Part shown: positions 1 to 16,155 of the stretch, one piece after another
How the letters are laid out: every line of letters starts with the position of its first letter
Numbering within the stretch: the first letter of the stretch is position 1
Source: an uncultured Blautia sp.
GTDB taxonomy: Bacteria > Bacillota > Clostridia > Lachnospirales > Lachnospiraceae
NCBI GenBank assembly: GCA_900765525.1
Contig: CAAFRY010000115.1
Span: 1 to 16,155, forward strand
Reading direction: 5' to 3'
Length of the DNA: 16,155 nt
Made by a program: the position numbers and the translations under genes
Notes under the pieces: generated by a model
The model's input: only the letters and a program-made list of their open reading frames with translations
What the model was told of the DNA's origin: nothing
The model's database searches: none

Positions 1-35
1 GAATAAGCAGCGGCCCTAAAAGCCGCTGCTTATTC
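1..35 (+). repeat. Perfect 14-bp inverted repeat (RNA hairpin) upstream of scfB
   Basis: Bases 1-14 are exactly complementary to bases 22-35, with a 7-base loop (CCTAAAA). The stem is GC-rich in its centre. No run of T follows, so it is not a textbook intrinsic terminator. In Clostridia the SCIFF precursor gene scfA normally lies directly before scfB, so this hairpin probably sits between the two. There it could attenuate read-through or protect the 3' end of a short, abundant scfA mRNA. The role is inferred from position; the repeat itself is seen directly. Confidence 0.8.
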
Positions 36-63
36 CATGCCTTCCTGTCAGTAGGAAATTTGG

Positions 64-70
64 AAAGGGG
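64..70 (+). promoter_or_regulatory. Ribosome binding site that decides the scfB start
   Basis: AAAGGGG ends 7 bases before the TTG at 78. It lies inside the longer reading frame that would begin with the TTG at 60, and nothing comparable precedes that earlier TTG. The site therefore supports translation from 78. Confidence 0.7.
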
Positions 71-77
71 AAACAAG

Positions 78-1460: not shown

Positions 1461-3703
1461 AGAAAAGCAGAGGTGTACTTATTTTAGTGCTGACCGTACT
1501 GGTAACCGCATTTCTGATTTTTACATCAGCAGTGGGAATCGGCCCTACGGGAACAGGAGCTGCCGAGCACATAAAGACAGGTTTGGATTTGGCCGGCGGT
1601 GTCAGCATTACCTACGAGGCTTCTGAGGAGTCTCCCAGTGAAGAGGACATGGCAGATACTATCTACAAGCTGCAAAAGCGTGTGGAGCAGTACAGCACAG
1701 AGGCTCAGGTTTACAAAGAGGGTGACAACAGGATTGTTGTGGAAATCCCCGGTGTTACAGATGCAAATGCAATTTTAGAGGAGCTGGGTAAGCCGGGTTC
1801 TCTGTATTTTATCGCTCATAAGGATTCAGAAGGAAATGAAAATTATTCTCTGAACAGCCAGACCGGAGCTTATGAGCTGACCAAAACCATTGAAGAGATT
1901 GAAGCTGACGGCGGTATTGTTCTTACGGGAACAGATATTAAGGATGCTAAGGCTGCAGTTGCCACAGACGAGCTGAAAAATAATGAGAATGTGGTAAGCC
2001 TTTCCATGACAGAGGAGGGGGCCGAGAAATTTGCTGTGGCCACTAAAGAAGCAGTGGAGGCCGGCAATGATACCATTGGTATTTATTACGACGGAAGCTT
2101 TGTCAGCGTTCCTCAGGTACAGGTGGAAATCACAGATGGAAACGCTCAGATTGACGGTATGGCAGATGCACAGGAAGCCCAGACCTTAGCTTCCACAATT
2201 CGTATCGGCGGACTGAAGCTGGAGCTGTCCGAGCTGCGTTCCAGCGTAGTTGCGGCCCAGTTGGGAGAGGAAGCTATTTCCACCAGCTTATTGGCAGCAG
2301 CTATTGGACTGGCCCTGATTATTCTGTTTATGATTGTGGTATACAGGATTCCGGGCTTGGTTGCAGGCATTGCCCTGGTGATTTATGTGTGCCTGGATTT
2401 GATTGCCCTTAATGCCTTTGATTTAACCCTTACTTTACAGGGTATTGCAGGTATTATTTTATCTATCGGTATGGCGGTGGATGCTAACGTTATTATTTAT
2501 GCCCGTATACAGGAAGAGATTGCAGCTGGAAAAACTGTGCGTACGGCTCTCCAGAATGGCTTCCAGAAAGCATTTTCTGCTATTTTTGACGGAAACATCA
2601 CTACCCTGATAGCTGCTTTCGTATTGAATTGGCTGGGTTCCGGTACCATCAAGGGCTTTGCTCAGACACTGGCTCTTGGTATTGTGTTGTCCATGTTCAC
2701 AGCTCTGGTGATTTCCAGATTCCTCATATATGCTATTTATGCAGCAGGAGTAAGGAATCAGAAATTCTACGGAATGCGCAAAGAGAGAACGCCAATACGG
2801 TTCCTGCAGAAAAAGAAACTGTTTTTCGCTATTTCTATTATTATGGTATTATGCGGCCCTGTGGCTATGCTGGCCTATAACGGAGCCGTGGGAAGTCCCT
2901 TGAAGTACAGCCTGGAGTTCCAGGGAGGTACCTCTACCACCGTAACCTTTGAGGAAGAAATGTCTGTAAAGGATATTGATTCCAAGGTAACCCCTTTGGT
3001 AGAAGAAGTTACAGGGGATAACAATGTACAGGCCACTAAGGTAGTGGACAGCAATCAGGTGATGATTAAGACCATTACTCTGGACGTAAGCCAGAGAGAA
3101 GCCCTGGAGGAGGCTTTGGTGGATGAGTTCGGCGTTAACCCGGACGAAATTACTTCAGAAAGTATTTCCTCCACAGTCAGCAGTGAAATGCGGGCAGATG
3201 CAGTAAAGGCTGTTATCGTGGCCACAGTTCTCATGCTGCTGTACATTTGGTTCCGGTTTAAGGATATTCGTTTTGCCAGCAGCGCTGTAATTGCCCTGTT
3301 GCACGACGTACTGGTGGTGTTGGCCTTCTATGCGTTGGCCAGAGTTTCCGTGGGCAATACCTTTATTGCCTGTATGCTGACTATTGTAGGTTATTCCATC
3401 AATGCTACAATCGTTATCTTTGACCGTATCCGTGAGAACCTTGCAACAACCAAGGTGAAGAATAACGAGGCTCTGGAAACACTGGTAAATGCCAGCATTA
3501 CCCAGACCCTTACCAGAAGTATCTATACTTCTCTCACAACCTTTATCATGGTATTTCTTCTGTTCCTGCTTGGAGTTTCCTCCATACGGGAATTCGCCCT
3601 GCCTCTTATGGTAGGTATTGTCTGCGGAGGATATTCTTCTGTTTGTATCACAGGCGCACTGTGGTATGTAATGAAAACCAGGATAAAGAAAGGGAAAAAA
3701 TAA
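1457..3703 (+). CDS. secDF: Protein translocase subunit SecDF (fused SecD-SecF)
   Basis: Membrane pump of the RND superfamily that uses the ion gradient to finish Sec-dependent export. At 748 residues it matches fused Bacillus-type SecDF. SecD half (about 1-435): TM1 at 7-27; GLDLAGG at 42-48; extracytoplasmic P1 region about 60-265; LRSSVVAAQLG at 260-270, the likely counterpart of the conserved Arg of other SecDs; then five TM segments, with AVDANVIIYARIQEE at 340-354 carrying the conserved TM4 Asp (D342). SecF half (about 445-748): TM at 455-474, LEFQGGT at 486-492, five C-terminal TMs, and GYSINATIVIFDRIREN at 645-661. Most SecFs have Asp where this protein has A650 (SIND-T motif). A GGAG lies 9 bases before the ATG. 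The start overlaps the scfB stop. A hairpin terminator follows the gene. Confidence 0.95.
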   Translation: MKKSRGVLILVLTVLVTAFLIFTSAVGIGPTGTGAAEHIKTGLDLAGGVSITYEASEESPSEEDMADTIYKLQKRVEQYSTEAQVYKEGDNRIVVEIPGVTDANAILEELGKPGSLYFIAHKDSEGNENYSLNSQTGAYELTKTIEEIEADGGIVLTGTDIKDAKAAVATDELKNNENVVSLSMTEEGAEKFAVATKEAVEAGNDTIGIYYDGSFVSVPQVQVEITDGNAQIDGMADAQEAQTLASTIRIGGLKLELSELRSSVVAAQLGEEAISTSLLAAAIGLALIILFMIVVYRIPGLVAGIALVIYVCLDLIALNAFDLTLTLQGIAGIILSIGMAVDANVIIYARIQEEIAAGKTVRTALQNGFQKAFSAIFDGNITTLIAAFVLNWLGSGTIKGFAQTLALGIVLSMFTALVISRFLIYAIYAAGVRNQKFYGMRKERTPIRFLQKKKLFFAISIIMVLCGPVAMLAYNGAVGSPLKYSLEFQGGTSTTVTFEEEMSVKDIDSKVTPLVEEVTGDNNVQATKVVDSNQVMIKTITLDVSQREALEEALVDEFGVNPDEITSESISSTVSSEMRADAVKAVIVATVLMLLYIWFRFKDIRFASSAVIALLHDVLVVLAFYALARVSVGNTFIACMLTIVGYSINATIVIFDRIRENLATTKVKNNEALETLVNASITQTLTRSIYTSLTTFIMVFLLFLLGVSSIREFALPLMVGIVCGGYSSVCITGALWYVMKTRIKKGKK

Positions 3704-3710
3704 AACACAT

Positions 3711-3770
3711 AGGGACTGCCGGGAAAACCTCACATATTACAGGTTTTCCCCGACGGTCCCTTTCTTACTT
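3711..3770 (+). terminator. Hairpin terminator after secDF
   Basis: AGGGAC (3711-3716) and GGGAAAACCT (3721-3730) pair with AGGTTTTCCC (3741-3750) and GTCCCT (3756-3761). A small internal loop lies between the two stems and a 10-base apical loop closes the hairpin. A T-rich tail (TTTCTTACTT) follows. It begins 8 bases after the secDF stop and ends shortly before the recJ ribosome binding site, leaving almost no room for a separate recJ promoter. It may be leaky. Confidence 0.75.
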
Positions 3771-3787
3771 ACCAAGGAGAACAATAA

Positions 3788-5503
3788 ATGGAAAAATGGG
3801 TGGTAGCCGCCAAACGGGCGGACTTTCAGGACATAAGCCGGAAATTTGGCATAGACCCGGTAATAGCCAGGCTAATCCGAAACCGGGACGTTATAGGGGA
3901 TAAGGAGATTGATACCTATCTGCACGGGAAGCTTTCCCAGCTCCATTCCTGGAAACTTCTCATGGGAATGGAAGAGCTGCTGGATATATTAGAGAAAAAA
4001 ATCAGAGAAAACCAGAAAATCCGTATTATAGGCGATTATGATATTGATGGAATCTGCTCTACTTACATACTTTTAAAGGGCCTGGAAAGAGCCGGTGCCC
4101 ATGTGGATGTGGATATTCCCGACCGGATGAAGGACGGATATGGTATCAGCCGGGAGCTTATTGATTTAGCCCATGATGCAGGGGTGGATACTATTCTTAC
4201 CTGCGATAATGGCATCAGCGCCATAGAACAGGTGGCCTATGCCAGAGAGTTGGGCATGACGGTGCTGGTAACAGACCATCATGAAGTGCCTTATGAGGAG
4301 CAGGAGGACGGAAGTGTCTTGAAATTTCTTCCCTCTGCCCAGGCTATTGTAAATCCCAAGCAGGAGGATTGTTCCTATCCATTCAAAGGAATATGCGGGG
4401 GTATGGTGGCCTTTAAGGTGATTCAGGGTCTGTATGAAACCATGGGAATTTCAGGAAGAGAAGCGGAGTCGCTGATTCCTTTTGCTGCCATTGCCACAGT
4501 AGGGGATGTGATGGACTTGACAGATGAAAACAGGATTCTGGTTCGGGAAGGGCTGCGGCGGCTGCAGAATACAGATAACCCAGGTTTAAAAGCCCTGATT
4601 CGTGTCAATAATCTGGAAAACAGAGAAATCACAGCCTATCATATCGGATTTATCCTGGGGCCCTGCCTGAATGCCAGCGGCAGGCTCAGTACGGCAAAAC
4701 GGGCCCTGAATCTGCTTTTGTGCCGGGAGGAGAGAGAGGCCGCTCTTTTGGCCCAGGATTTAAAGGCTTTAAACGACAGCCGTAAGGACATGACAGCCAA
4801 AGGTGTGGAGGAAGCCGTAGATTTAGTAGAGAACACTGATTTAGGAAAGGACAGAGTGCTGGTTATATACCTGCCTCATTGCCATGAAAGCCTGGCGGGA
4901 ATCATTGCTGGAAGAATCCGGGAGCGGTATACCAAGCCTGCCTTTGTGCTGACAGACGGAGAGGAAGGGGTAAAGGGTTCCGGCCGTTCTATTGAGGCCT
5001 ATCATATGTTCCGGGAGCTGGTAAAGTGCCGGGAGCTGCTTACAAAATTCGGCGGCCATCCCATGGCGGCAGGATTATCACTTCCCAGGGAGAATGTAGA
5101 AGCCTTCCGCAGGCTGCTGAATGAGAATTGCTCCCTGACCCCGGAGGATATGGTGGAAAAAATTGTCATCGATGTGCCGATGCCCCTGTCTTATGTGACC
5201 ATCCCTCTGATACGCCAGCTTTCTCTTCTGGAACCCTTTGGAAAAGGAAACACAAAGCCTGTATTTGCTCAAAAGCAGGTGCGGCTGCTCCAATGCAGAG
5301 TGCTGGGGAAAAACAGGAATGTGGTGAAGATGAAGCTGGCAGACCAGTATGGTTTCCAAGGAGAAGGGGTCTGGTTTGGAGACGGAGACCTGTTTCTGGA
5401 AAAAGCGGCCCAAAAACAGACCTGGGATTTGCTGTATTATCCCTCTATAAATGCCTATATGGGGCGGGAGAGTATAGAGTTTGTCATTCAGAGTCTACGG
5501 TAG
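3788..5503 (+). CDS. recJ: Single-stranded-DNA-specific 5'-3' exonuclease RecJ
   Basis: DHH-family, metal-dependent exonuclease that degrades 5' single-stranded DNA in recombination and repair. In order: DYDIDG at 83-88 (motif I), TCDNG at 138-142 (motif II), DHHE at 163-166 (motif III), GDVMDL at 239-244 (Asp ligand), GPCLNASGRL at 291-300. The DHHA1 domain follows with HESLAGIIAGR (366-376), GSGRS (397-401) and FGGHPMAAG (421-429). An OB-type nucleic-acid-binding tail makes up about 460-571. At 571 residues it is close to the E. coli length and lacks the long extra C-terminal extension of Bacillus RecJ. AAGGAG lies 8 bases before the ATG. It is 84 bases downstream of secDF across a hairpin, so its transcription relies either on read-through or on a promoter inside secDF. 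Confidence 0.96.
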   Translation: MEKWVVAAKRADFQDISRKFGIDPVIARLIRNRDVIGDKEIDTYLHGKLSQLHSWKLLMGMEELLDILEKKIRENQKIRIIGDYDIDGICSTYILLKGLERAGAHVDVDIPDRMKDGYGISRELIDLAHDAGVDTILTCDNGISAIEQVAYARELGMTVLVTDHHEVPYEEQEDGSVLKFLPSAQAIVNPKQEDCSYPFKGICGGMVAFKVIQGLYETMGISGREAESLIPFAAIATVGDVMDLTDENRILVREGLRRLQNTDNPGLKALIRVNNLENREITAYHIGFILGPCLNASGRLSTAKRALNLLLCREEREAALLAQDLKALNDSRKDMTAKGVEEAVDLVENTDLGKDRVLVIYLPHCHESLAGIIAGRIRERYTKPAFVLTDGEEGVKGSGRSIEAYHMFRELVKCRELLTKFGGHPMAAGLSLPRENVEAFRRLLNENCSLTPEDMVEKIVIDVPMPLSYVTIPLIRQLSLLEPFGKGNTKPVFAQKQVRLLQCRVLGKNRNVVKMKLADQYGFQGEGVWFGDGDLFLEKAAQKQTWDLLYYPSINAYMGRESIEFVIQSLR

Positions 5504-5548
5504 AGGGACTTTTTTCAGAAAAACGAGAAACAAAACACGAAATAAAAT

Positions 5549-5577
5549 TTGCGTATGCAGAAAAAAGATGATATACT
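5549..5577 (+). promoter_or_regulatory. Extended -10 sigma-A-type promoter for apt-rel
   Basis: TTGCGT (5549-5554) and TATACT (5572-5577) are separated by exactly 17 bases, and a TG lies one base before the -10, making it an extended -10. Transcription would start near 5584, about 50 bases before the apt ATG. The surrounding 133-base gap is strongly AT-rich, and the site sits well placed between recJ and apt. This is a prediction from sequence only. Confidence 0.65.
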
Positions 5578-5636
5578 AAAATCTACACAAAAATCAGAGA
5601 ATTGACAATATTCGAAAAATAAAGGATGGAGATAGC

Positions 5637-6176
5637 ATGGGAAGTTGTGAAAAGAAAAAAATTGAAGATTATGTAAGAAGCATTCCGGACTTTCCGGAAG
5701 AGGGGGTTATTTTCCGTGATGTGACCAGTATCCTTCAGAATGCAGACGGTTTTGCCCTTGCCATAGATTCTTTGCAGGAACTTTTAGACGGACTGGATGT
5801 GGATGTGATTGCAGGCACAGAGTCCAGAGGATTTATTTTTGGGGCGCCTATTGCATACAATTTACATAAGCCTTTGGTTTTGATAAGAAAAAAAGGAAAG
5901 CTTCCCTGTGAAACTATCCAGCAGGAATATGATTTGGAATATGGAAGCGCCGTAATCGAGATGCACAAGGATTCTATTTTGCCGGGACAAAAAGTAGCGA
6001 TTGTTGATGATTTGATTGCCACGGGAGGAACCGTGGAGGCAGCGGCAAAGATGATTGAGCAGCTGGGCGGCCAGGTGGTTAAGATTGTTTTCCTTATGGA
6101 ATTAGCGGGATTAAAAGGGAGAGAAAGGCTTGCAAAATATGATGTGGCATCTGTAATCCGGTATGAAGGTAAATAG
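5637..6176 (+). CDS. apt: Adenine phosphoribosyltransferase
   Basis: Cytoplasmic purine-salvage enzyme: adenine + PRPP gives AMP + pyrophosphate. The 179 residues match the usual length of the family (about 170-185). The N-terminus has the family pattern IPDFPEEGVIFRDVT (16-30). The hallmark AGTESRGFIFG is at 59-69, the flexible-loop region IRKKGKLP at 83-90, and the PRPP-binding motif VDDLIATGGT at 123-132. GGAG lies 5 bases before the ATG. Only 17 bases separate it from rel. This apt-rel pairing is common in Firmicutes and links AMP supply with (p)ppGpp control. A good promoter lies about 60 bases upstream. Confidence 0.97.
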   Translation: MGSCEKKKIEDYVRSIPDFPEEGVIFRDVTSILQNADGFALAIDSLQELLDGLDVDVIAGTESRGFIFGAPIAYNLHKPLVLIRKKGKLPCETIQQEYDLEYGSAVIEMHKDSILPGQKVAIVDDLIATGGTVEAAAKMIEQLGGQVVKIVFLMELAGLKGRERLAKYDVASVIRYEGK

Positions 6177-6193
6177 AAAGCAGGTGGTGTCAT

Positions 6194-8503
6194 ATGGAAG
6201 AAAAAAGAGAATCAACCCTGCGGGAAGATGAGATTGAGAAAATTAAAAAGGCTGATGCCAGTGTAAAGGCCATGGAGGATTTTACCAGTCCGGAGGTGCT
6301 GTATGACGAGCTGATTGCCAGCGTAAAGAAATACCATCCGTCCACGGACATTTCCATGATAGAAAAGGCCTTTAATATAGCAAATAATGCCCATAAGGGC
6401 CAGGTGAGAAAATCAGGAGAGCCCTATATCATACATCCACTGTGTGTGGGCATTATTCTGGCGGATTTGGAGCTGGATAAAGAGACTATTGTGGCGGGTC
6501 TGCTCCATGATGTAGTGGAAGATACGGTAATGACCGGCCAGGAAATCTGTCAGGAGTTCGGAGCTGAGGTGGAGCTGCTGGTGGACGGTGTTACCAAGCT
6601 GGGACAGTTGAGCTACTCTGCAGATAAAGTAGAGGTCCAGGCGGAAAATTTAAGAAAAATGTTCCTGGCTATGGCTAAGGATATTAGAGTTATCCTTATT
6701 AAGCTGGCCGACCGTCTGCATAATATGAGGACTCTGAAATATATGACTCCGGCCAAGCAGAAGGAAAAGGCCAGAGAAACCATGGACATCTATGCACCCA
6801 TTGCCCAGAGGCTGGGTATTTCCAAGGTGAAGATAGAGCTGGATGATTTGTCCCTGAAATATCTGAAGCCTGAGGTGTATTACGATTTAGTAGAGAAGAT
6901 AAACCTGAAGAAAAGCGAGCGCCAGGCTTTTATTGACCAGATTGTAGGGGATGTGAGAAAGCACATTGAAAATGCCGGCATCCATGCCCAGATTGACGGC
7001 AGGATTAAGCATTTCTTCAGCATATATAAGAAGATGGTAAACCAGGATAAGACCCTGGAACAAATATATGATTTATTTGCGGTCCGCATCATTGTGGACA
7101 CGGTAAAAGACTGTTATGCCTGTCTGGGAATCATCCATGAGATGTATAAGCCAATACCAGGGCGGTTTAAGGACTATATTGCAATGCCAAAACCCAATAT
7201 GTACCAGTCACTTCATACTACCTTGATTGGCCCCTCAGGACAGCCTTTTGAAATCCAGATTCGTACCTTTGACATGCACAGAACGGCTGAATACGGTATT
7301 GCCGCCCATTGGAAGTATAAAGAGGTTTCCAATAACGGGAAGGTCAATGTGACCCAGTCTGAGGAAGAAAAGATGAGCTGGCTCCGTCAGATTTTGGAAT
7401 GGCAAAGGGACATGTCTGATAACAAAGAATTTTTAAGTCTGTTAAAAAGTGACTTGGATTTGTTTTCAGAGAGTGTCTACTGCTTCACTCCTGCAGGAGA
7501 TGTGAAGACACTGCCAAACGGCTCCACACCCATTGATTTCGCTTACAATGTTCACAGTGCTGTGGGAAATAAAATGGTAGGGGCCAGAGTCAACGGCAAG
7601 CTGGTTCCCATTGAATATGTGATTAAAAATGGAGACAGGGTGGAAATCATTACTTCCCAGAACTCCAAAGGCCCCAGCCGTGACTGGCTGAAGGTGGTAA
7701 AAAGCACCCAGGCCAAAAATAAGATTAACCAGTGGTTCAAGCAGGAACTGAAAGAAGATAACATACTGAAAGGCAAGGATATGCTTTCTCAGTATGCAAA
7801 GGTAAAAGGCGTGAATCTGGGAGTTATCCTGAAGCCCAAATATCAGGAAGCAGTCATGAAAAAATACGGTTTCCGGGACTGGGATTCTGTGCTGGCTGCT
7901 TTAGGACACGGGGGCCTGAAGGAGGGCCAGATTCTCAATAAACTCCAGGAAGTTTACAATAAGGAACACAAAGCAGAGCTGACAGATGAGAAGGTGCTGG
8001 AGGCTGCTGCAGACAATAAGGAGAAGCTTCACATCAGTAAGATAAAAGGCGGCATTGTGGTAAAAGGAATTCATGATGTGGCAGTGCGCTTCTCCAAATG
8101 CTGCAATCCTATTCCGGGAGACGAGATTGTGGGCTATGTTACCAGAGGAAGAGGAGTGACTATCCACCGGACGGATTGTGTCAACGTTATCAATATGTCA
8201 GGAGATGACAGAAACCGTCTGATTGATGCAGAATGGCAGGCACCGGACAACAGCCAAGGGGAGCGGTATATTGCGGAATTGAACGTATATGCCTATAACC
8301 GCACCGGGCTGATTGTAGATATTTCCAAGATTTTTACAGAGAGGAAAATAGATATTTCCGCTTTAAATACCAGAACCAGCAAGCAGGGAACCGCAACCAT
8401 CAATATTTCCTTTGAGGTTTGCAGTAAGGAAGAGCTGAACAGCCTTATTGAGAAAATCCGTCAGATTGAAAGCGTTAAGGATATTGAGCGGACCGCAGGC
8501 TGA
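6194..8503 (+). CDS. rel: Bifunctional (p)ppGpp synthetase/hydrolase (RelA/SpoT family)
   Basis: Long RSH protein of the stringent response, which makes (p)ppGpp from ATP and GTP/GDP on stalled ribosomes and hydrolyses it again. 769 residues, family-typical. HD hydrolase domain: RKSGEPYIIHP (72-82), LLHDVVEDT (103-111) with H105/D106, and KLADRLHNMRTL (170-181), so hydrolase residues are intact. Synthetase domain: RIIVDTVKDCY (298-308), GRFKDYIAMPKPNMYQSLH (323-341) and EIQIRT (353-358), also intact. TGS domain about 425-487, helical region to about 590, zinc-finger/conserved-cysteine region with C636, C637 and C662, and a C-terminal ACT domain about 692-765. AGGTGG lies 6 bases before the ATG. 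It follows apt by 17 bases and precedes the MBL-fold gene by 19. Confidence 0.97.
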   Translation: MEEKRESTLREDEIEKIKKADASVKAMEDFTSPEVLYDELIASVKKYHPSTDISMIEKAFNIANNAHKGQVRKSGEPYIIHPLCVGIILADLELDKETIVAGLLHDVVEDTVMTGQEICQEFGAEVELLVDGVTKLGQLSYSADKVEVQAENLRKMFLAMAKDIRVILIKLADRLHNMRTLKYMTPAKQKEKARETMDIYAPIAQRLGISKVKIELDDLSLKYLKPEVYYDLVEKINLKKSERQAFIDQIVGDVRKHIENAGIHAQIDGRIKHFFSIYKKMVNQDKTLEQIYDLFAVRIIVDTVKDCYACLGIIHEMYKPIPGRFKDYIAMPKPNMYQSLHTTLIGPSGQPFEIQIRTFDMHRTAEYGIAAHWKYKEVSNNGKVNVTQSEEEKMSWLRQILEWQRDMSDNKEFLSLLKSDLDLFSESVYCFTPAGDVKTLPNGSTPIDFAYNVHSAVGNKMVGARVNGKLVPIEYVIKNGDRVEIITSQNSKGPSRDWLKVVKSTQAKNKINQWFKQELKEDNILKGKDMLSQYAKVKGVNLGVILKPKYQEAVMKKYGFRDWDSVLAALGHGGLKEGQILNKLQEVYNKEHKAELTDEKVLEAAADNKEKLHISKIKGGIVVKGIHDVAVRFSKCCNPIPGDEIVGYVTRGRGVTIHRTDCVNVINMSGDDRNRLIDAEWQAPDNSQGERYIAELNVYAYNRTGLIVDISKIFTERKIDISALNTRTSKQGTATINISFEVCSKEELNSLIEKIRQIESVKDIERTAG

Positions 8504-8522
8504 GGATAATGGAGATTAGCCT

Positions 8523-9155
8523 ATGAAAAATTTAGTATTAAGAGGAATAGTAGTTGGTCCGGTACAGACCAACTGCTATTTTCTGAAAAACAGAGAAACC
8601 GAAGAAATTATCGTGGTAGACCCGGGAGCAGAGGATGAGAGAATCCGTATGGCTCTGGAACGGCTGGGAGGCCGACCCGCAGCCATTCTCCTTACCCACG
8701 GCCATTATGACCATATATGTGCAGCCAAGGAGCTGAAAGAGCATTACCGGATTCCTATATATGCTCCAAAAGCAGAGGAAGAGCTTTTGCAGAATACTTC
8801 CTGGAACCTGTCTGCTGCCTGGTCTGGCAAGGCGTACAAGGTCCAGGGGGATGTGTGGCTGGAAGACGGGCAGGAAACGGATATTGCCGGATTTCAGGTG
8901 AAGACAATACTCACCCCCGGCCATACTGCAGGTTCTGCCTGTTATTGGCTTCCGGAGGAAGAGGTCTGCTTTTCCGGGGATACGGTTTTTGCAGGCTCCT
9001 GCGGAAGAACAGATTTGCCTACAGGAAGCATGAGCCAGATGAGAGAAAGCCTGGCCAGGATATTAGGGCTGCTTCCGGCAGGAACAGCTATTTTCCCAGG
9101 ACACGGGGAAGAGACAGATGCAGGGTTTGAGAGAAAGCACAATCCTTATCTCTAA
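8523..9155 (+). CDS. Metallo-beta-lactamase-fold hydrolase, glyoxalase II-like (YqgX type)
   Basis: Small cytoplasmic zinc hydrolase of 210 residues. The metal ligands are all present: THGHYDH at 58-64 (H59, H61, D63, H64), H134 in TPGHTAGS, D153 in SGDTVF, and H194 in FPGHGEET. The N-terminus (VGPVQTNCYFL) and the C-terminus (ending NPYL) match the YqgX/GloB-like group, which in Bacillus is linked with thioester hydrolysis and methylglyoxal handling. The substrate here is unknown. GGAG lies 8 bases before the ATG. It sits between rel and hemZ and is probably cotranscribed with them. In several clostridia a D-aminoacyl-tRNA deacylase gene occupies the slot before it; here there is none. Confidence 0.9.
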   Translation: MKNLVLRGIVVGPVQTNCYFLKNRETEEIIVVDPGAEDERIRMALERLGGRPAAILLTHGHYDHICAAKELKEHYRIPIYAPKAEEELLQNTSWNLSAAWSGKAYKVQGDVWLEDGQETDIAGFQVKTILTPGHTAGSACYWLPEEEVCFSGDTVFAGSCGRTDLPTGSMSQMRESLARILGLLPAGTAIFPGHGEETDAGFERKHNPYL

Positions 9156-9195
9156 GCCCTTTACGGAAGAAATTATAATAGAAAGAGATAATCAT

Positions 9196-10659
9196 ATGAT
9201 TGGAATCTCATTTAACGAGGAAGAATTTGAGTACGATGCCTACACCTTGGTGAAGGCTTTTTATCCCAAAGAGGATATTGAGATGTACTGTACCCAAAAG
9301 ACGGAGACCCCCAAGTCTTATGAAAATCTGGTGTCCATATGCTATGGAGAGCAGGTGGTCATCAGCCTGGACTTTCAAGGAAAACATTTGGAAGCCAGTG
9401 CGCCTTATGGGGTACAGGAAGACAGAAAGCTGCGGAAAAACCGGTTAAAACAGGTACTGTACCAGCTGCTGAGAGAAGAAAGCGGACGGAGCCTTCCCTG
9501 GGGAAACCTTACGGGAATTCGTCCTGTAAAGCTGGCTATGGGGCTGCTGGAGGAGGGTATGAGCAATGCCCAGGCCGCAGAGTATATGCGGAAGACCTAT
9601 TTCACCAGCAAGGAAAAAACAGCCCTGGCCATTACCATTGCCAATCGGGAGCGGGAAATCCTGAAGGATATAGATTATGAAAAAGGATATAGTCTGTATG
9701 TGGGCATTCCCTTTTGCCCCAGTATATGTCTGTACTGCTCCTTCAGCTCATCTCCCATGGCCAGATGGAGGGACAAGGTTGAGGAATACCTGGATGCCTT
9801 ATGCAGGGAGTTGGATTTCATTGCAGAATCCATGAAAGAATGGAATTTAGACTCTGTGTATATTGGAGGAGGCACCCCTACCACGCTGGAGCCAGAACAG
9901 CTTCGGCGGCTTTTGGGACATATCCAGGAAAAATTTCCGGTGGAGCAGGCTAAGGAGTATACAGTGGAAGCGGGACGCCCGGACAGTATTACCAGGGAAA
10001 AGCTTCTGGCTATACGGGAGTTTCCTGTTACCAGGATTTCTGTAAATCCCCAGACCATGAACCAAGGTACTTTGGACCTGATAGGCAGGAAGCATACTGT
10101 GGAGGATACACGACACGCCTTCGCTTTGGCGAGGGAATGTGGATTTGATAATATCAATATGGATTTAATCGTAGGACTTCCCGGGGAGCATAAGGAGGAT
10201 GTGAAACGTACGCTGGAAGAAGTGAAGCTTTTAGGCCCTGACAGCCTTACTATTCACTCTCTTGCGGTAAAACGTGCAGCCAGACTGAATATGTTCCGGG
10301 ACCAGTACCAGGAAATGGAGTTTGAAAACAACGAGGAAATCATGGACATGACCATGAAATATGCCTATGAAATGGGAATGGGTCCTTACTATCTGTACCG
10401 GCAGAAAAATATGTGCGGAAATCTGGAAAATGTTGGCTATGCAAAAGTTGACAAAGCCGGAATTTACAATATACTAATGATGGAGGAAAAACAAACCATC
10501 ATGGCTGCAGGAGCAGGAGCTTCCACAAAATTCGTATTCCAGAACGGGGAACGGATTGAGCGGGCAGAAAATGTAAAAGACGTGAGCAATTACATGGCCC
10601 GGGTGGAGGAAATGATGGAGCGCAAGAAGGCTGGGATTAAAACATGGCTGAAAGAATAG
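9196..10659 (+). CDS. hemZ: HemZ, radical SAM coproporphyrinogen III oxidase-like protein
   Basis: Oxygen-independent coproporphyrinogen-oxidase-like radical SAM enzyme of the HemZ branch. I chose the ATG at 9196 (487 residues): MIGISFNEEEFEYDAYTLVKAFYP is where family similarity begins, and AAAGAG lies 8 bases upstream. The frame is open back to an ATG at 9118, but that start would overlap the MBL-fold gene by 38 bases and add 26 residues without family resemblance. An N-terminal THUMP-like/HemZ-specific region is followed by the radical SAM motif CPSICLYC (C174, C178, C181), GGGTP (224-228), TVEAGRPDSI, ISVNPQTM, MDLIVGLPGE, and the HemZ hallmark YYLYRQKNM. A haem role is known for relatives, but the exact reaction is uncertain. 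No other haem genes are present here. Confidence 0.9.
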   Translation: MIGISFNEEEFEYDAYTLVKAFYPKEDIEMYCTQKTETPKSYENLVSICYGEQVVISLDFQGKHLEASAPYGVQEDRKLRKNRLKQVLYQLLREESGRSLPWGNLTGIRPVKLAMGLLEEGMSNAQAAEYMRKTYFTSKEKTALAITIANREREILKDIDYEKGYSLYVGIPFCPSICLYCSFSSSPMARWRDKVEEYLDALCRELDFIAESMKEWNLDSVYIGGGTPTTLEPEQLRRLLGHIQEKFPVEQAKEYTVEAGRPDSITREKLLAIREFPVTRISVNPQTMNQGTLDLIGRKHTVEDTRHAFALARECGFDNINMDLIVGLPGEHKEDVKRTLEEVKLLGPDSLTIHSLAVKRAARLNMFRDQYQEMEFENNEEIMDMTMKYAYEMGMGPYYLYRQKNMCGNLENVGYAKVDKAGIYNILMMEEKQTIMAAGAGASTKFVFQNGERIERAENVKDVSNYMARVEEMMERKKAGIKTWLKE

Positions 10660-11204
10660 GAAAGGTGATTCACTATGACCTGGTAACAGAAATCAACCAT
10701 GGCATTCTGGTGAGCAGCCTGGCTTCAGCAGTAGGAGAGGAGCTGGGACTTCCCAAAGAACAGTGTCATGAGCTGGCGGTTGCCGGGGTTCTTCACGACA
10801 TCGGGAAGCTGAGGCTTTCCGGCTATGTGTCGGGAGAGGAAAATCCACTGGTAGTGGAAGAAATCAAATACGTCCGCAGACATCCCCAGTTAGGCTGCGA
10901 AATACTGAAGAAACGGGGATATTCCCAGTATATTCTGGAGTGTATTTATTATCATCACGAGAATTACGATGGAAGCGGGTACCCGGAAAAATTAAGAGGG
11001 GAAGAGATTCCTCTTGGAAGCCGAATTTTAAGAGTTTGCGATACCTATGGAGCGCTGGTGGAAAAAAGGCCCTACCGGGATGCCTTTGATTCCCAGACGG
11101 CCATCCGTCTTATGATAGACGAGGTGAAAAATTTTGATATGCAGGTGTTTCTGGCTTTTATGCGGGTAGTCCATGAAAAGGACACAACAGAGGAAGAAGT
11201 TTAG
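10644..11204 (+). CDS. Single-domain HD-GYP phosphohydrolase-like protein
   Basis: A 186-residue protein made almost entirely of an HD-GYP domain, the class that degrades cyclic di-GMP or related nucleotides. Visible ligands and motifs are H19, LHDIGKL (50-56) with H51 and D52, H80 in RRHPQLG, HHENYDGSGYP (104-114) containing the HH and GYP signature, and D133 in RVCDTYGAL. No receiver, PAS, GAF or membrane segment is attached, so any sensing must come from expression or a partner. The ATG at 10644 overlaps the hemZ end by 16 bases, suggesting translational coupling, although its Shine-Dalgarno is weak. A GTG at 10665 is an alternative start that keeps the whole domain. The nucleotide substrate is unknown; a generic HD phosphohydrolase is the other possibility. 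Confidence 0.85.
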   Translation: MAERIGKVIHYDLVTEINHGILVSSLASAVGEELGLPKEQCHELAVAGVLHDIGKLRLSGYVSGEENPLVVEEIKYVRRHPQLGCEILKKRGYSQYILECIYYHHENYDGSGYPEKLRGEEIPLGSRILRVCDTYGALVEKRPYRDAFDSQTAIRLMIDEVKNFDMQVFLAFMRVVHEKDTTEEEV

Positions 11205-11286
11205 AAAACGGGAAAATTTCAGAAGATTATAAGATAAAGTGGAAGAATACCGTAAAAAGAAATAGAAAAGAGAGGAGAACAAGACA

Positions 11287-12537
11287 ATGCAGTTAAAGAA
11301 AAAACCAGTGACAGGCATGAAGGATATTCTGCCTCAGGAAATGGAAATCCGTGATTACTTAATCAGTTTAATCAAGGAAACTTATAAACAGTTTGGCTTC
11401 ACTTCTATGGAGGCTCCCTGCGTAGAACACATTGAAAATCTGACCAGTAAGCAGGGGGGAGACAATGAGAAGCTGATTTTCCGTATTTTAAAAAGAGGAG
11501 AAAAATTAAAGCTGGAACAGGCAAAATCCGAGGATGACTTGGTGGACAGCGGTCTGCGCTATGACTTGACTGTACCTCTGTGCCGGTTTTATTCCAATAA
11601 TGCCAATGAGCTTCCACAGCCCTTTAAGGCTCTGCACATCGGAAACGTATTCCGTGCGGACCGTCCCCAGAGAGGCCGTTTCCGTCAGTTTATGCAGTGT
11701 GATATTGACATTTTGGGAGACCCTACTTTCCTGGCGGAGATTGACGTTATCCTGGCTACCTCTACCCTGGTAGGTAAACTGGACTTCGATAAATTTACCA
11801 TCCGTATCAATGACAGAAGAATTTTAAAGGCAATGGCAGCCTACAGCGGCTTCCCGGAAGAATCCTTTACCCAGGTGTTTATCATTCTGGATAAGATGGA
11901 TAAAATTGGCATGGATGGCGTGGCCCAGGAGCTTATAGAGTCCGGCTTTGATAAAGAAGGCGTGGACAAATATCTGGGATTGTTCCAGGCTATGGGCTCT
12001 GGTGTAGAAGGCGTAAAATATTGCAAAGAGCAGCTGGAAGGCTTCCTGGAGCCTAAGGTAGCCGATGATTTGGTTACAGTTATTGAAAGTGTAATGGAGG
12101 CGAAGACCGCTAACTTTGACCTGGTGTTTGACCCCACTTTGGTGCGTGGTATGTCTTATTATACAGGACCTATTTTCGAAATTTCTATTGACGGTTTTGC
12201 CGGAAGCGTAGGCGGCGGCGGACGTTATGACGAGATGATTGGCAAATTCACGGGAACACCTACACCGGCTACTGGCTTTTCCATTGGTTTCGAGCGTATT
12301 GTTATGCTGCTGATGGAGAAGGGCTTTAAGGTGCCTGGAACCAAGGAGAAAAAAGCATATCTTTTGGACAAAAAATTGTCCGGAGAAAAGCTTTTAGAGG
12401 TTATGAAAAAGGCAGCAAGGGAGAGACAGGAAGGCCAGAGCGTGAATATTGTATACGCTAAGAAAAACAAGAAATTCCAGAAGGAACAGCTTACCAATGA
12501 GGGCTATTCCATTATAGAAGAAGTGTACAACGACTAA
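11287..12537 (+). CDS. hisS: Histidyl-tRNA synthetase, eukaryote/archaea-like form
   Basis: Class II synthetase charging tRNA-His. 416 residues. DLTVP is at 93-97, motif 2 FRADRPQRGRFRQF at 122-135, the catalytic-Arg motif LVRGMSYYTG at 285-294, GGGRYD at 310-315, and motif 3 GFSIGFERI at 330-338. RINDRRIL (173-180) and LDKMDKIG (201-208) resemble eukaryotic HisRS rather than the NSLG-type segment of standard bacterial enzymes. After motif 3 only about 60 residues remain for the anticodon-binding domain, shorter than usual. AGGAGA lies 8 bases before the ATG. The 82 bases upstream contain no T-box leader, which many Firmicute synthetase genes have, and no clear promoter. aspS follows after 17 bases, the usual hisS-aspS pair. 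Confidence 0.95.
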   Translation: MQLKKKPVTGMKDILPQEMEIRDYLISLIKETYKQFGFTSMEAPCVEHIENLTSKQGGDNEKLIFRILKRGEKLKLEQAKSEDDLVDSGLRYDLTVPLCRFYSNNANELPQPFKALHIGNVFRADRPQRGRFRQFMQCDIDILGDPTFLAEIDVILATSTLVGKLDFDKFTIRINDRRILKAMAAYSGFPEESFTQVFIILDKMDKIGMDGVAQELIESGFDKEGVDKYLGLFQAMGSGVEGVKYCKEQLEGFLEPKVADDLVTVIESVMEAKTANFDLVFDPTLVRGMSYYTGPIFEISIDGFAGSVGGGGRYDEMIGKFTGTPTPATGFSIGFERIVMLLMEKGFKVPGTKEKKAYLLDKKLSGEKLLEVMKKAARERQEGQSVNIVYAKKNKKFQKEQLTNEGYSIIEEVYND

Positions 12538-12554
12538 AAAGGAGAGTTTATGTC

Positions 12555-14366
12555 ATGGCAGAATCAATGAAGGGGCTGAAGAGAAGCCACAGATGTACGG
12601 AAGTGACAAAGGCAGACATAGGAAGCACCGTAACTCTTATGGGATGGGTGCAGAAAAGCAGAAATAAGGGCGGAATCGTCTTTGTGGATTTAAGAGACCG
12701 CTCCGGTATTATGCAGGTTATATTTGAAAACAGCGATATAGACCAGGAAGGATTTGAGAAAGCCGGAAAGCTGAGAAGTGAGTTTGTCATTGCAGTGACA
12801 GGCCGTGTGGAGGCCCGTTCCGGTGCGGTAAACCAGAATCTGGCTACAGGCGAGATAGAAGTGCGGGCAACCCAGCTCCGTATTCTGTCCGAGGCCGAGA
12901 CACCTCCCTTCCCCATTGAGGAGAACAGCAAGACCAGGGAAGAGGTGCGGCTGAAATACAGGTATCTGGATTTGAGAAGGCCGGATTTACAGAAAAATAT
13001 GATACTGCGTTCCAATGTTTCCACGTTGGTGCGCCAGTTCCTGGCTAAGGAAGGATTTCTGGAAATTGAGACTCCTACCCTGATTAAAAGTACCCCGGAA
13101 GGAGCAAGGGATTATCTGGTGCCCAGCCGGGTTCATCCTGGAAGCTTTTATGCGCTGCCCCAGTCTCCTCAGATTTTCAAGCAGCTTTTGATGTGTTCCG
13201 GATATGACCGGTATTTCCAACTGGCCAGATGCTACAGGGACGAAGATTTGCGTGCAGACCGTCAGCCGGAGTTTACCCAGATAGATATGGAGCTGTCCTT
13301 TGTTGATGTAGATGATGTAATTGATGTAAACGAAAGAATGTTGGCCTTTCTCTTTAAAGAGGTGCTGGGAGTAGAGGTAAGCCTGCCTATCCAGAGAATG
13401 ACCTGGCAGGAGGCTATGGACAGATTTGGTTCCGATAAACCGGATTTGCGTTTTGGCATGGAGCTTACAGATGTTTCTGAGGTAGTGAAGGACTGTGAGT
13501 TTGCAGTATTTAAGGGTGCCCTGGAAAACGGAGGCAGTGTAAGAGGTATCAATGCCAAGGGACAGGGAGCCATGCCCAGAAAGAAAATTGATAAGCTGGT
13601 AGAATTTGCCAGAGGATACGGTGCCAAAGGCCTGGCTTATATTGCCATCGGACAGGATGGGGGAGTGAAATCTTCCTTTGCAAAGTTTATGAAAGAGGAA
13701 GAGATGACTGCTCTTATCCAGGCCATGAAAGGAGAGAATGGGGATTTACTTCTCTTTGCTGCGGATAAGACAAAACTGGTATGGGATGTATTAGGCGCTC
13801 TGCGTCTGGAACTGGCAAAACAGATGGAGCTTTTAGATAAAAATGAATTCCGTTTTGTATGGATTACAGAATTCCCGCTGCTGGAGTACTCTGAAGAGGA
13901 GGACAGATTTGTCGCTATGCACCATCCTTTCACCATGCCAATGGAGGAGGATTTGCAGTATCTGGACTCTCAGCCGGGCCGTGTCCGTGCAAAAGCCTAT
14001 GATATTGTGTTAAACGGAAATGAAATTGGCGGAGGCTCTGTCCGTATTTTCCAAAATGACGTTCAGGAAAAGATGTTTGAGGTGCTGGGCTTCACAAAGG
14101 AAGAAGCTTATAACCGTTTTGGATTCCTTCTGGATGCGTTTAAATATGGTGTGCCCCCTCATGCAGGACTGGCTTACGGCCTGGACCGTCTGGTCATGCT
14201 GATGGCAAAAGAAGACTCTATCCGTGACGTAATTGCCTTCCCCAAGGTGAAAGACGCTTCTTGTCTCATGTCAGAGGCGCCGGATGTGGTGGATGAAAAA
14301 CAGTTGGAAGAGCTGGGAATCGCCATTGTAGCCCAGGAGAAAAAAGAAGAAGACCAGGGAGAGTAA
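12555..14366 (+). CDS. aspS: Aspartyl-tRNA synthetase (bacterial type)
   Basis: Class IIb synthetase charging tRNA-Asp. 603 residues, normal for bacterial AspRS. An N-terminal OB-fold anticodon-binding domain (about 24-110) is followed by the catalytic core, with FLEIETPTL (168-176) in motif 1, motif 2 around FQLARCYRDEDLRADRQPEF (221-240), the bacterial GAD insertion (about 295-430), LNGNEIGGGSVRI (486-498), and motif 3 GLAYGLDRLVMLM (538-550). GGAG lies 10 bases before the ATG at 12555. Whether it is discriminating, or also makes Asp-tRNA-Asn, cannot be decided from this window. It is the last gene of the plus-strand cluster, ending about 50 bases before a strong hairpin. Confidence 0.97.
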   Translation: MAESMKGLKRSHRCTEVTKADIGSTVTLMGWVQKSRNKGGIVFVDLRDRSGIMQVIFENSDIDQEGFEKAGKLRSEFVIAVTGRVEARSGAVNQNLATGEIEVRATQLRILSEAETPPFPIEENSKTREEVRLKYRYLDLRRPDLQKNMILRSNVSTLVRQFLAKEGFLEIETPTLIKSTPEGARDYLVPSRVHPGSFYALPQSPQIFKQLLMCSGYDRYFQLARCYRDEDLRADRQPEFTQIDMELSFVDVDDVIDVNERMLAFLFKEVLGVEVSLPIQRMTWQEAMDRFGSDKPDLRFGMELTDVSEVVKDCEFAVFKGALENGGSVRGINAKGQGAMPRKKIDKLVEFARGYGAKGLAYIAIGQDGGVKSSFAKFMKEEEMTALIQAMKGENGDLLLFAADKTKLVWDVLGALRLELAKQMELLDKNEFRFVWITEFPLLEYSEEEDRFVAMHHPFTMPMEEDLQYLDSQPGRVRAKAYDIVLNGNEIGGGSVRIFQNDVQEKMFEVLGFTKEEAYNRFGFLLDAFKYGVPPHAGLAYGLDRLVMLMAKEDSIRDVIAFPKVKDASCLMSEAPDVVDEKQLEELGIAIVAQEKKEEDQGE

Positions 14367-14485: not shown

Positions 14486-15583
14486 TCAGGCCGCAGAGTT
14501 CACAGCTGCGGTAATATCACCCAGCACCGCTGCAGCTAAAGAGGAATCCATCTGGATTTTCCAATTTATACCATCGTTTACCAGTTCTATGGTGATTTCT
14601 TTAGAAACGGTTTTTTGATTATGTTGAATACAGGACAGCAGCAGCTCCTGCTCCTTTTGACGACGGCCCTGAGCGCCTTCGGACAGAGACTGGGAGGCGT
14701 TTTCCTTCAGCCATTGGGAAAGCTGCTCTTTGTAGGCTTCCAGAATACTTTCAAAATCAACGGTAGTGGCAAGAACCTTTACCGCTGCCTGGGAGTCTTC
14801 TGTTTGCTCCTCCAGGATTTCATAATCAAAGAATTGATGAATTTGACCTGCAAGAGCGGAGGCCAGAGCCTCACCATAAATGCTGTCTTCCTCCCCCAGC
14901 TGGTCCAGGGACAAGTAAATCATTAGCTGGTTTTGGTCAAGGTCCCGGATAGTATCCAGATGGGCAGCTACGATTTCTGAGGGGGAAAGGAGACGGGCAT
15001 CTGTAAGATAAAGGGCAAAGTCACCTGTCAAAAGACTGTCAAGCTCTGGGGTATGAATTACCTGCCAGCTCTCTCCTTCTTTTTCCAGTGAAAGAACCAC
15101 GGTTTCTTCTTTTAAAGAATAGCTGTTGTCTTTCATGACCTTTTTTAGAAGTTCACAGGAATCATGCAAAGAGAATTCGCTGTTTTCAGGGTCTGCCTGC
15201 TGCTGGATATGCTTTTTCAGCACTGCAAGGGAATAATCTTTGGCCAGAGCATGAGCATCTATAAGCTGCAGCTGGGTTTTGGCCTGGGCATGGGTCTCAT
15301 CCTGGATGTCAACTTTCTTTACCTTATAGGTAAAATCCTTATAAAAAAGGGTAAAAATTTCAGCCATTTCTCCGCCTATATCCTGGTAATCCTGGGAAGA
15401 CGGAAGCAGTTTCTGGGTATCAATGCAGTTCGCAATAGTCTGGGTATCTGAGCTTTTTAACTGCTCTAGTTCCTGATATACAGCTTCCTTTATTTCCTTT
15501 TTTTCTTTGGAACAGCCATATAATATCAAGCAGGACATACACAGGATAAGGCCCAGAAGGATTGATTTTTTTCTTCTGTTCAT
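14486..15583 (-). CDS. Predicted lipoprotein of unknown function with two similar halves
   Basis: I do not recognise a named family. The start is the ATG at 15583 (365 residues), because GGAGAAGC lies just before it; a longer frame from 15604 would add 7 residues and contain that site. The N-terminus has MNRRKKS, a hydrophobic stretch (8-22) and a lipobox LYGC with the lipid-carrying Cys at 24, so the protein should be anchored outside the membrane. The rest is acidic, helical and Gln/Glu-rich. Two halves look related: about 35-190 and 205-355 each run from a helical segment (EAVYQELEQLKSSD; AAHLDTIRDLDQNQ) to a beta segment ending with a Trp (ESWQVIHT; GINWKIQM) and a similar last helix. This resembles duplicated NTF2-like lipoprotein domains of clostridia. 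It has its own candidate promoter and the convergent terminator. Confidence 0.85.
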   Translation of the reverse strand: MNRRKKSILLGLILCMSCLILYGCSKEKKEIKEAVYQELEQLKSSDTQTIANCIDTQKLLPSSQDYQDIGGEMAEIFTLFYKDFTYKVKKVDIQDETHAQAKTQLQLIDAHALAKDYSLAVLKKHIQQQADPENSEFSLHDSCELLKKVMKDNSYSLKEETVVLSLEKEGESWQVIHTPELDSLLTGDFALYLTDARLLSPSEIVAAHLDTIRDLDQNQLMIYLSLDQLGEEDSIYGEALASALAGQIHQFFDYEILEEQTEDSQAAVKVLATTVDFESILEAYKEQLSQWLKENASQSLSEGAQGRRQKEQELLLSCIQHNQKTVSKEITIELVNDGINWKIQMDSSLAAAVLGDITAAVNSAA

Positions 15584-15586
15584 AAT

Positions 15587-15594
15587 GCTTCTCC
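15587..15594 (-). promoter_or_regulatory. Ribosome binding site that decides the lipoprotein start
   Basis: On the minus strand GGAGAAGC lies at 15594-15587; 7 bases separate the GGAG core from the ATG at 15583. It falls inside the longer frame from 15604, which supports the shorter protein. Confidence 0.7.
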
Positions 15595-15621
15595 AAATAT
15601 CCATCTTTTTAGTATGCCCCT

Positions 15622-15650: not shown

Positions 15651-15710
15651 CTAAAGTATATTTCAGCGTATATCTGCTGATTTTTCTATCCGCTGTCCAT
15701 ACAGAAGATT

Positions 15711-16037
15711 TCATTCCTTAAGTCTCAGATAAAAAGACAGTATGGAAATAAATTCTCCTGTAGTTGGTTTCCTTGTCAGCGGATAACCTGCAATTTTAAT
15801 CAAAAGATTTTTGTTTCCTTCATTCCAGCAAATGGTTATGGCAGTGCGGATAGAGCGCTCCACCTTGGCGCTGGTGGTGTGAAAATGCTTAGCAATGTCG
15901 GGATAAAGCCGTTTTGTTATATAAAGAAGATATTCCTCGTCATGAAGCACTAATTCTAAAGCATAAGAAAGATAGTGATACCCGTGATAGACGGAACAGA
16001 TACCCAGCCGGTGAATTAACGTTTCGATTTTCTTCAT
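15711..16037 (-). CDS. Stand-alone Spo0A C-terminal DNA-binding-domain protein
   Basis: A 108-residue protein that aligns by eye with the DNA-binding (effector) domain of Spo0A over its whole length: IHRLGICSVYHGYHYLSYAL (8-27) matches the [20 protein letters not shown] region, ITKRLYPDIAKHFHTTSAKV (40-59) matches [20 protein letters not shown], and VERSIRTAITICW (59-71), GY and PTTGEFIS (91-98) follow in the same order. The receiver domain with its phosphorylated Asp is absent, so the protein cannot be switched by the phosphorelay in the usual way. The start is firm: AAAGGAG lies 7 bases before the ATG at 16037. The upstream region holds several 0A-box-like sites. Likely a DNA-binding regulator that competes with, or works beside, Spo0A; its targets are unknown. 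No terminator is obvious in the 127 bases after it. Confidence 0.9.
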   Translation of the reverse strand: MKKIETLIHRLGICSVYHGYHYLSYALELVLHDEEYLLYITKRLYPDIAKHFHTTSAKVERSIRTAITICWNEGNKNLLIKIAGYPLTRKPTTGEFISILSFYLRLKE

Positions 16038-16087
16038 AGAAACACTCCTTTCTCAGGCTGCTATCCAGCATACCTCAGAACCAACAA

Positions 16088-16106
16088 AACGACATTACTT
16101 TCGACA
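16088..16106 (-). promoter_or_regulatory. Proximal pair of 0A boxes in the leader of the Spo0A-domain gene
   Basis: On the minus strand a perfect 0A box TGTCGAA lies at 16106-16100, and TGTCGTT, with one mismatch, at 16094-16088. Both have the same orientation and are 12 bases apart start to start. With the promoter placed at 16127-16155 they would fall about 15-33 bases inside the transcript, a position typical of repression. Binding is predicted, not shown. Confidence 0.6.
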
Positions 16107-16126
16107 AAGAAAATCAAGTTTCGTAA

Positions 16127-16155
16127 TTTATAGATGTTTAACGACAGATTTCGAC
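16127..16155 (-). promoter_or_regulatory. Candidate promoter with overlapping tandem 0A boxes
   Basis: On the minus strand GTCGAA (16155-16150) is 17 bases from TATAAA (16132-16127), so a 0A-box-like sequence, cut by the window edge, occupies the -35 position next to a good -10. A second box, TGTCGTT, lies at 16146-16140, exactly 10 bases from the first and in the same orientation. This is the spacing known for tandem 0A boxes bound by a Spo0A dimer. Poor -35, good -10 and overlapping 0A boxes is the plan of Spo0A-activated sigma-A promoters. The outer box needs the next base to be confirmed. Confidence 0.5.

Follow-up and report, generated by a model that had tools for sequence, protein, structure and literature searches.

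A stand-alone Spo0A effector-domain gene downstream of a phased array of 0A-like boxes in Blautia

The window analysed here, a stretch of 16,155 nucleotides from an uncultured Blautia sp., carries near its end a small gene for a Spo0A DNA-binding (effector) domain that stands alone, without a receiver. This observation, first made in the initial annotation, is confirmed, and the domain, fold and missing receiver of the product (P0001), its conservation, the phased array of 0A boxes upstream, the co-occurrence of gene and array, and the synteny of the locus were established by computation. Newly observed are the phased upstream array, the synteny with a divergent exporter together with the joint absence of gene and array, and the retention of DNA-contact residues as against the change at helix-E positions. 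With about an even chance of being right, we propose that P0001 is a phosphorylation-independent, self-regulated Spo0A-type binder that acts on its own phased 0A-box operator and perhaps influences its neighbours. That P0001, rather than or besides phosphorylated Spo0A (Spo0A~P), occupies the array is something we infer, as are autoregulation, exporter control and the sign of the regulation.

Identity, fold and conservation of the small gene

The P0001 gene is a minus-strand open reading frame of 108 aa (15711..16037), with its ATG at 16037 and its stop codon ending at 15711, the strand being a detail absent from the initial annotation, and its assignment as a stand-alone Spo0A_C gene draws on Pfam, PDB matches, a structure model and Foldseek. 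The protein belongs to the Pfam family Spo0A_C (PF08769), matching profile positions 1-104 of 104 with 117 bits (E 4e-34; gathering cut-off 25), and falls outside the full-length Spo0A family, since its 96.8 bits against TIGR02875 lie below the 200-bit equivalog cut-off for whole Spo0A. Matches in the PDB (1fc3, E 5e-23; 1lq1, E 7e-23) align to effector domains nearly end to end, and the helix-turn-helix described in the initial annotation as largely conserved is so, with TTSAKVERSIRTAI of P0001 aligning to TTASRVERAIRHAI in the PDB match. An AlphaFold2 model built with 13 family members as input has a pLDDT of 94.6, and the seven Foldseek matches to it at E<=0.001 are all chains of 1lq1 or 1fc3 (TM 0.80-0.87 by query length), so the predicted fold is that of the Spo0A effector domain. 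The earlier statement that the protein covers this domain from end to end therefore holds for the fold, which is complete, and fails residue for residue: the loop after GYxL is three residues shorter in P0001 than in Spo0A.

No receiver domain with a phosphoacceptor Asp was found in P0001. Going upstream from the ATG, an in-frame stop is reached after only five codons, so that an in-frame receiver fusion is not possible, and this stop, together with a divergent HlyD-like gene upstream in 11/11 orthologous loci, rules out a receiver fused to P0001 or joined to it through a frameshift. The ribosome binding site AAAGGAG (16045..16051, minus strand) was read 7 nt before the ATG; it recurs unchanged in front of the L001 and L004-L008 genes, and those of other relatives are similar.

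A protein search with P0001, whose length rule admits about 59-189 aa, returned 17 homologues, all Spo0A_C proteins of 93-125 aa. Relatives are encoded at 11 loci of named genomes; eight are orthologues at 75-78% identity from the genus of Blautia sp. An81, and three further orthologues from the same genus, at 68% identity (G013, G016 and G017), bring the total to 11. The window itself is Blautia-like, with aspS 91-95% and hisS 92% identical to the orthologous loci. The short form is kept separately from full-length spo0A: ten of the 11 orthologue-bearing genomes also hold spo0A as a frame of 265-269 aa, and in the eleventh (G005) a contig end truncates the second copy to a frame of 120 aa. 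With dN/dS of 0.03-0.09 among orthologues (14 pairs with dS<1), a pseudogene is ruled out, and the comparison indicates a real gene under purifying selection of its own, in keeping with the designed small gene, rather than fragment, of the initial annotation.

These figures weigh against the reading of the gene as a decaying fragment of a duplicated spo0A, or as mobile-element cargo with no host role, which we consider very improbable. It would agree with the patchy presence of the small gene in the genus and with a report, in the excerpted text of PMC6907783, that Spo0A_C is enriched in gut mobile elements. Against it stand the low dN/dS, the constant position beside the exporter in 11/11 loci, and the conserved ribosome binding site and upstream array. 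A scan of viral contigs, which detects close relatives only, confirmed 0 of 43 pattern matches, and matches in phage (14 records) and plasmids (4 records) reach just 26-43% identity; on these two results a phage or plasmid origin of the P0001 subfamily was rejected. The open-access literature searched yielded no description of natural stand-alone Spo0A_C proteins.

The phased array of 0A-like boxes

The window ends 118 bp upstream of the P0001 ATG and cuts the array there. A motif scan places an exact 0A box, TGTCGAA, at 16100..16106, and further upstream at 10-bp phase, all on the minus strand, the degenerate box TGATTTT (16110..16116), the near-consensus box TTACGAA (16120..16126), the degenerate box CATCTAT (16130..16136), TGTCGTT (16140..16146) and GTCGAA (16150..16155), the last cut by the window end so that its first base lies outside. 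One more TGTCGTT on this strand (16088..16094) falls outside the phase, at 12 bp from the box that precedes it on the minus strand, and overlaps the expected -35 region. The putative -10 element TATGCT (16067..16072, minus strand), read by eye, recurs in L001 and L004-L008 and has no good -35 hexamer before it; a generic promoter scan of the window called a single site, inside the small gene, and did not call TATGCT. No match in the window attained the gathering score of an Rfam family.

Taken by itself, the window gives an array signal that is genuine though of modest strength. Three, four, five and six boxes on the gene's strand give p=0.007, 0.011, 0.0013 and 0.013; with the contact bases only, p=0.27 (n=4) and 0.037 (n=6). 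When both strands are scored the best four-box match falls on the opposite strand, and for four boxes a spacing of 12 scores as high as a spacing of 10 (z 3.2 vs 3.0).

TGTCGAA is the published core of the 0A box, contacted at G2, C4 and G5 (PMC3485338, in excerpt). An alignment of orthologous intergenic regions hinted at boxes every 10 bp, and arrays were scored as four boxes of this motif at spacings 7-15, as z against dinucleotide shuffles. Across 12 promoters (the 11 orthologues and the window), spacing 10 gave a mean z of about 5.3-5.4, with z>=3.1 in 12/12, compared with means of -0.3 to 1.5 at spacings 7-9 and 11-15, where z>=3 was reached at spacing 9 in 5/12, at spacing 12 in 1/12 and at the rest in none. 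This 12/12 array of 0A-like boxes supports the suggested link of the gene to 0A boxes. All 11 orthologues pass at z>=3 and eight have an exact box, as against 4/187 and 3/187 control ORFs; the 187 controls are ORFs of >=150 aa from the first loci, minus those that share the small gene's upstream region. Presence of an exact box was discarded as a signal, being too weak alone (none lies within 250 bp in L004, L065 and L067); what stays is the phase. Related promoters are not independent in any of these counts, and the start codons of short forms and controls were set by a simple ribosome-binding-site rule. Among six close loci, the mean pairwise difference is 0.055 from -118 to -20 and 0.133 from -200 to -119, the latter inflated by an indel in L004.

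Among the short forms tested first, z>=3 was reached by 4/25 genes of group B and 1/9 of group A, so that the array is a feature of some members of the family, clearest in those near the P0001 branch. For replication, 397 genomes of the family (which we take to be Lachnospiraceae, by way of Blautia) were searched with P0001, 96 had a match, and loci were drawn from the best 30 of the 96. Two of these, L130 and L131, repeat known orthologues, and L132-L159 were tested for the array; some loci gave two or three matches (two of those of L154 being weak, 31-38 bits), and L146 was dropped for short upstream DNA. The resulting set from the best 30 of 96 genomes comprised 31 short-form genes with enough upstream DNA, at 46-57% identity, three of which (L140, L143 and L149) were repeated from the earlier sample. 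Spacing 10 passed at z>=3 in 18-19 of the 31 and any other single spacing in 0-3; 12/31 fail at spacing 10. In a re-run, 17 of 18 passing arrays lay on the gene's strand and started 91-140 bp before the ATG. The box consensus from 88 boxes in 22 promoters (5 of the 12 orthologous ones and 17 new ones) is TGTCGAA followed by A/T-rich bases, and is biased by selection because the gene's strand was forced and the boxes were picked with the motif.

The promoters of spo0A itself served as a positive control for the motif, with an exact box in 19/20; the one miss, L020, belongs to another genus. They too show the 10-bp phase, so that the short genes are not alone in having the array, although the phase is weaker at spo0A: with four boxes z>=3 in 6/22 (mean z 2.1), and with six boxes in 10/22. 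Full-length Spo0A~P is thus a good candidate for the binder of the array, and may compete with P0001 for that role. Under this main alternative, to which we assign a probability below even, the array would be a target of Spo0A~P, and the small gene would belong to the Spo0A regulon and be switched as stationary phase begins; its product would work elsewhere, or would compete as an antagonist at other 0A boxes. A full-length-type spo0A in all 11 genomes (one contig-cut) and the boxes of the spo0A promoters are what such a regulon would lead one to expect. The stronger phase at the small gene (12/12 vs 6/22 for four boxes) would instead fit a dedicated binder.

In the abrB promoter, 0A boxes stand at 10-bp tandem spacing. 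The P0001 promoter resembles those of abrB type in holding more than one 0A box, and differs in having at least four boxes, all sharing phase and orientation, ahead of a gene for a Spo0A-type DNA-binding domain. The boxes of PabrB include non-consensus ones (PMC3485338, in excerpt).

The divergent exporter and genomes without the small gene

In 11/11 orthologous loci two genes with matches of HlyD type run divergently from the small gene (in some loci HlyD_3 and Biotin_lipoyl_2 score over the cut-off, HlyD_D23 below it). A MacB_PCD + FtsX permease comes next in 10/11, and in G003 lies on another contig. No ATPase gene was seen among the exporter genes of these loci. The operon at L004:3101-7690 and its orthologues consist of the MacB/FtsX permease and two HlyD-like genes, of which the second has a long low-complexity insert. 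Because only 118 bp of the window lie upstream of the ATG, a divergent HlyD/MacB-like exporter beyond base 16155 is predicted here rather than seen.

On the other side of the small gene comes a lipoprotein gene and, in loci with enough DNA, aspS and hisS after it; the arrangement differs in L065-L067. The downstream gene of the window (14486..15604, minus strand) encodes a lipoprotein-like protein of 372 aa with no Pfam match. This protein evolves faster than its neighbours (45-56% identity, as against 91-95% for aspS). A weak terminator-like stem (15663..15680, minus strand) parts it from the small gene, a point against the self-regulated reading; the stem is a consensus match only, found on both strands, in a search that gave 2 where 0.4 were expected. 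Read from its ORFs, the plus strand of the window from 1 to 14366 holds radical-SAM-like, SecDF-like, RecJ-like, Apt-like, RelA-like, MBL-fold, HemZ-like, HD-domain, HisS and AspS genes.

The exporter is present in 20/20 genomes of the genus, and in 11 of them the small gene stands beside it. All 11 gene-bearing genomes have the array upstream of the exporter (z4 3.4-7.3), and none of the nine gene-less ones has it (z4 0-2.6, no exact box). In this comparison, G015 offers 165 bp of upstream DNA only, and with six boxes G022 reaches z6 2.6 and G023 z6 3.0, the G023 match taking in the exporter's own TTCTGATATACTG stretch. A lipoprotein homologue is directly divergent from the exporter in 8/9 gene-less genomes, the contig of the ninth being too short. 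The array therefore follows the small gene and not the exporter, and since it co-varies with the gene it may serve just the gene's own promoter. In the exporter tree three clades contain the small gene and four lack it; with the same position and array in those three, repeated loss would be simpler than repeated gain. A -10-like TATAC/AT element of the exporter, found by pattern, is present in 8/11 loci with the gene and 3/9 without, and the array lies well upstream of it. Control of the exporter by the array would be a weakly supported proposal.

Contact and activation positions, possible function and related short forms

Two sets of positions in B. subtilis Spo0A numbering bear on function: E213, R214 and R217, which we take to be the DNA contacts of the recognition helix, and 231, 236 and 240, presumably the helix-E positions needed for sigma-A activation. 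The E, R and R of VERxxR are kept in 12/12 orthologues, window included. In the same 12/12, positions 231, 236 and 240 are L, A and L, compared with T/V/N, F and V/I in 23 full-length Spo0A proteins, so that P0001 lacks the residues presumably needed by a sigma-A activator; positions 218, 226 and 258 also differ from full-length Spo0A in 12/12. The pattern suits a DNA-binding protein whose activation properties have changed. Shared contacts alongside differences at 231, 236, 240 and 258 are also what the Spo0A~P alternative expects of a non-activating binder, an expectation that leans on the presumed role of helix E.

The similarity of P0001 to Spo0A (TIGR02875/PF08769) extends to the fold (TM 0.85 to 1lq1_D), the E-R-R contacts and the box TGTCGAA, and its promoter shares with that of spo0A the phased boxes, weaker in the latter; it departs from Spo0A in lacking a receiver, in the 3-residue loop deletion, in the replaced helix-E residues, in the stronger array and in a score under the TIGR02875 cut-off. 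A free effector domain had been said in the initial annotation to be active unphosphorylated, and for the isolated Spo0A DNA-binding domain unphosphorylated binding to its legitimate targets is published (PMC3485338, in excerpt). The purified Spo0A-DBD of that source is, like P0001, an isolated effector domain, and binds 0A boxes in that state; it is an experimental truncation, unlike P0001, which is a natural, separately evolving gene.

This precedent is what would favour P0001 as a phosphorylation-independent agonist of sporulation genes, an idea raised at first which we now regard as improbable. Replacement of the presumed sigma-A-activation residues in 12/12 disfavours a simple agonist, as do the further differences at 218, 226 and 258, the lack of the small gene in 9/20 congeneric genomes that keep spo0A (drafts), and neighbours that are export and envelope-type genes. 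According to the self-regulated reading, P0001 would instead act as a free-standing DNA-binding regulator that needs no phosphorylation; it would bind the 0A-type boxes upstream of its own gene, set 10 bp or one helical turn apart, probably as head-to-tail oligomers, and control its own transcription from there. Since the intergenic region is shared with the divergent genes, it may also influence the HlyD/MacB-like exporter operon. The comparative evidence points first to the own promoter and to neighbours, namely the exporter here, and response regulator, GH25 and ABC genes beside other short forms, ahead of the hypothetical role in a sporulation threshold that the initial annotation proposed.

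In a tree of short forms, from which listed near-duplicates and three partial-domain proteins were left out, the P0001 orthologues have support 99, a wider P0001-like group that includes L034 has 72, and a separate clade, group A, has 84. Pfam matches beside members of the P0001-like group include OmpR-type response regulators (L056, L141), GH25 (L152), an ABC ATPase (L083) and a PadR regulator (L060). Group A consists, like P0001, of stand-alone Spo0A_C proteins, and differs in its Spo0A-like helix-E residues (F236 kept in 8/9), in keeping D258 (9/9), in its glycan-type neighbours and in its rarity of arrays (1/9). Its members, L070-L078 (from G108, G053, G122, G059, G086, G134, G082, G109 and G129), lie among polysaccharide-type genes; by Pfam, L071 has a glycosyltransferase for a neighbour and L074 a mannose-1-phosphate guanylyltransferase-like gene.

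More broadly, and at somewhat less than an even chance, gut Lachnospiraceae may have turned the Spo0A effector domain into a family of receiver-less, self-regulating one-component factors. These would act cooperatively on directional one-turn 0A arrays upstream of their own genes, would have grown in number (one genome holds ten short copies) and been recruited to local operons for export, signalling and polysaccharides, and would compete or cooperate with Spo0A~P for the same boxes. If so, a family of receiver-less Spo0A effector domains, many of them with a phased 0A-box operator, would give gut bacteria a further layer, independent of phosphorylation, able to read, block or mimic the Spo0A regulon, and surveys that take bare Spo0A_C matches as spo0A would overcount.

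Multiplication of short genes is seen in G405, whose ten P0001 matches all fall in short frames (111-143 aa), and in G107, with six matches, two of them close together (G107:C1:125794 and 126281). Longer frames of 170-183 codons also carry, besides additional sequence, a Spo0A_C-like domain, C-terminal in L057-L059 and N-terminal in L061, L063 and L064.
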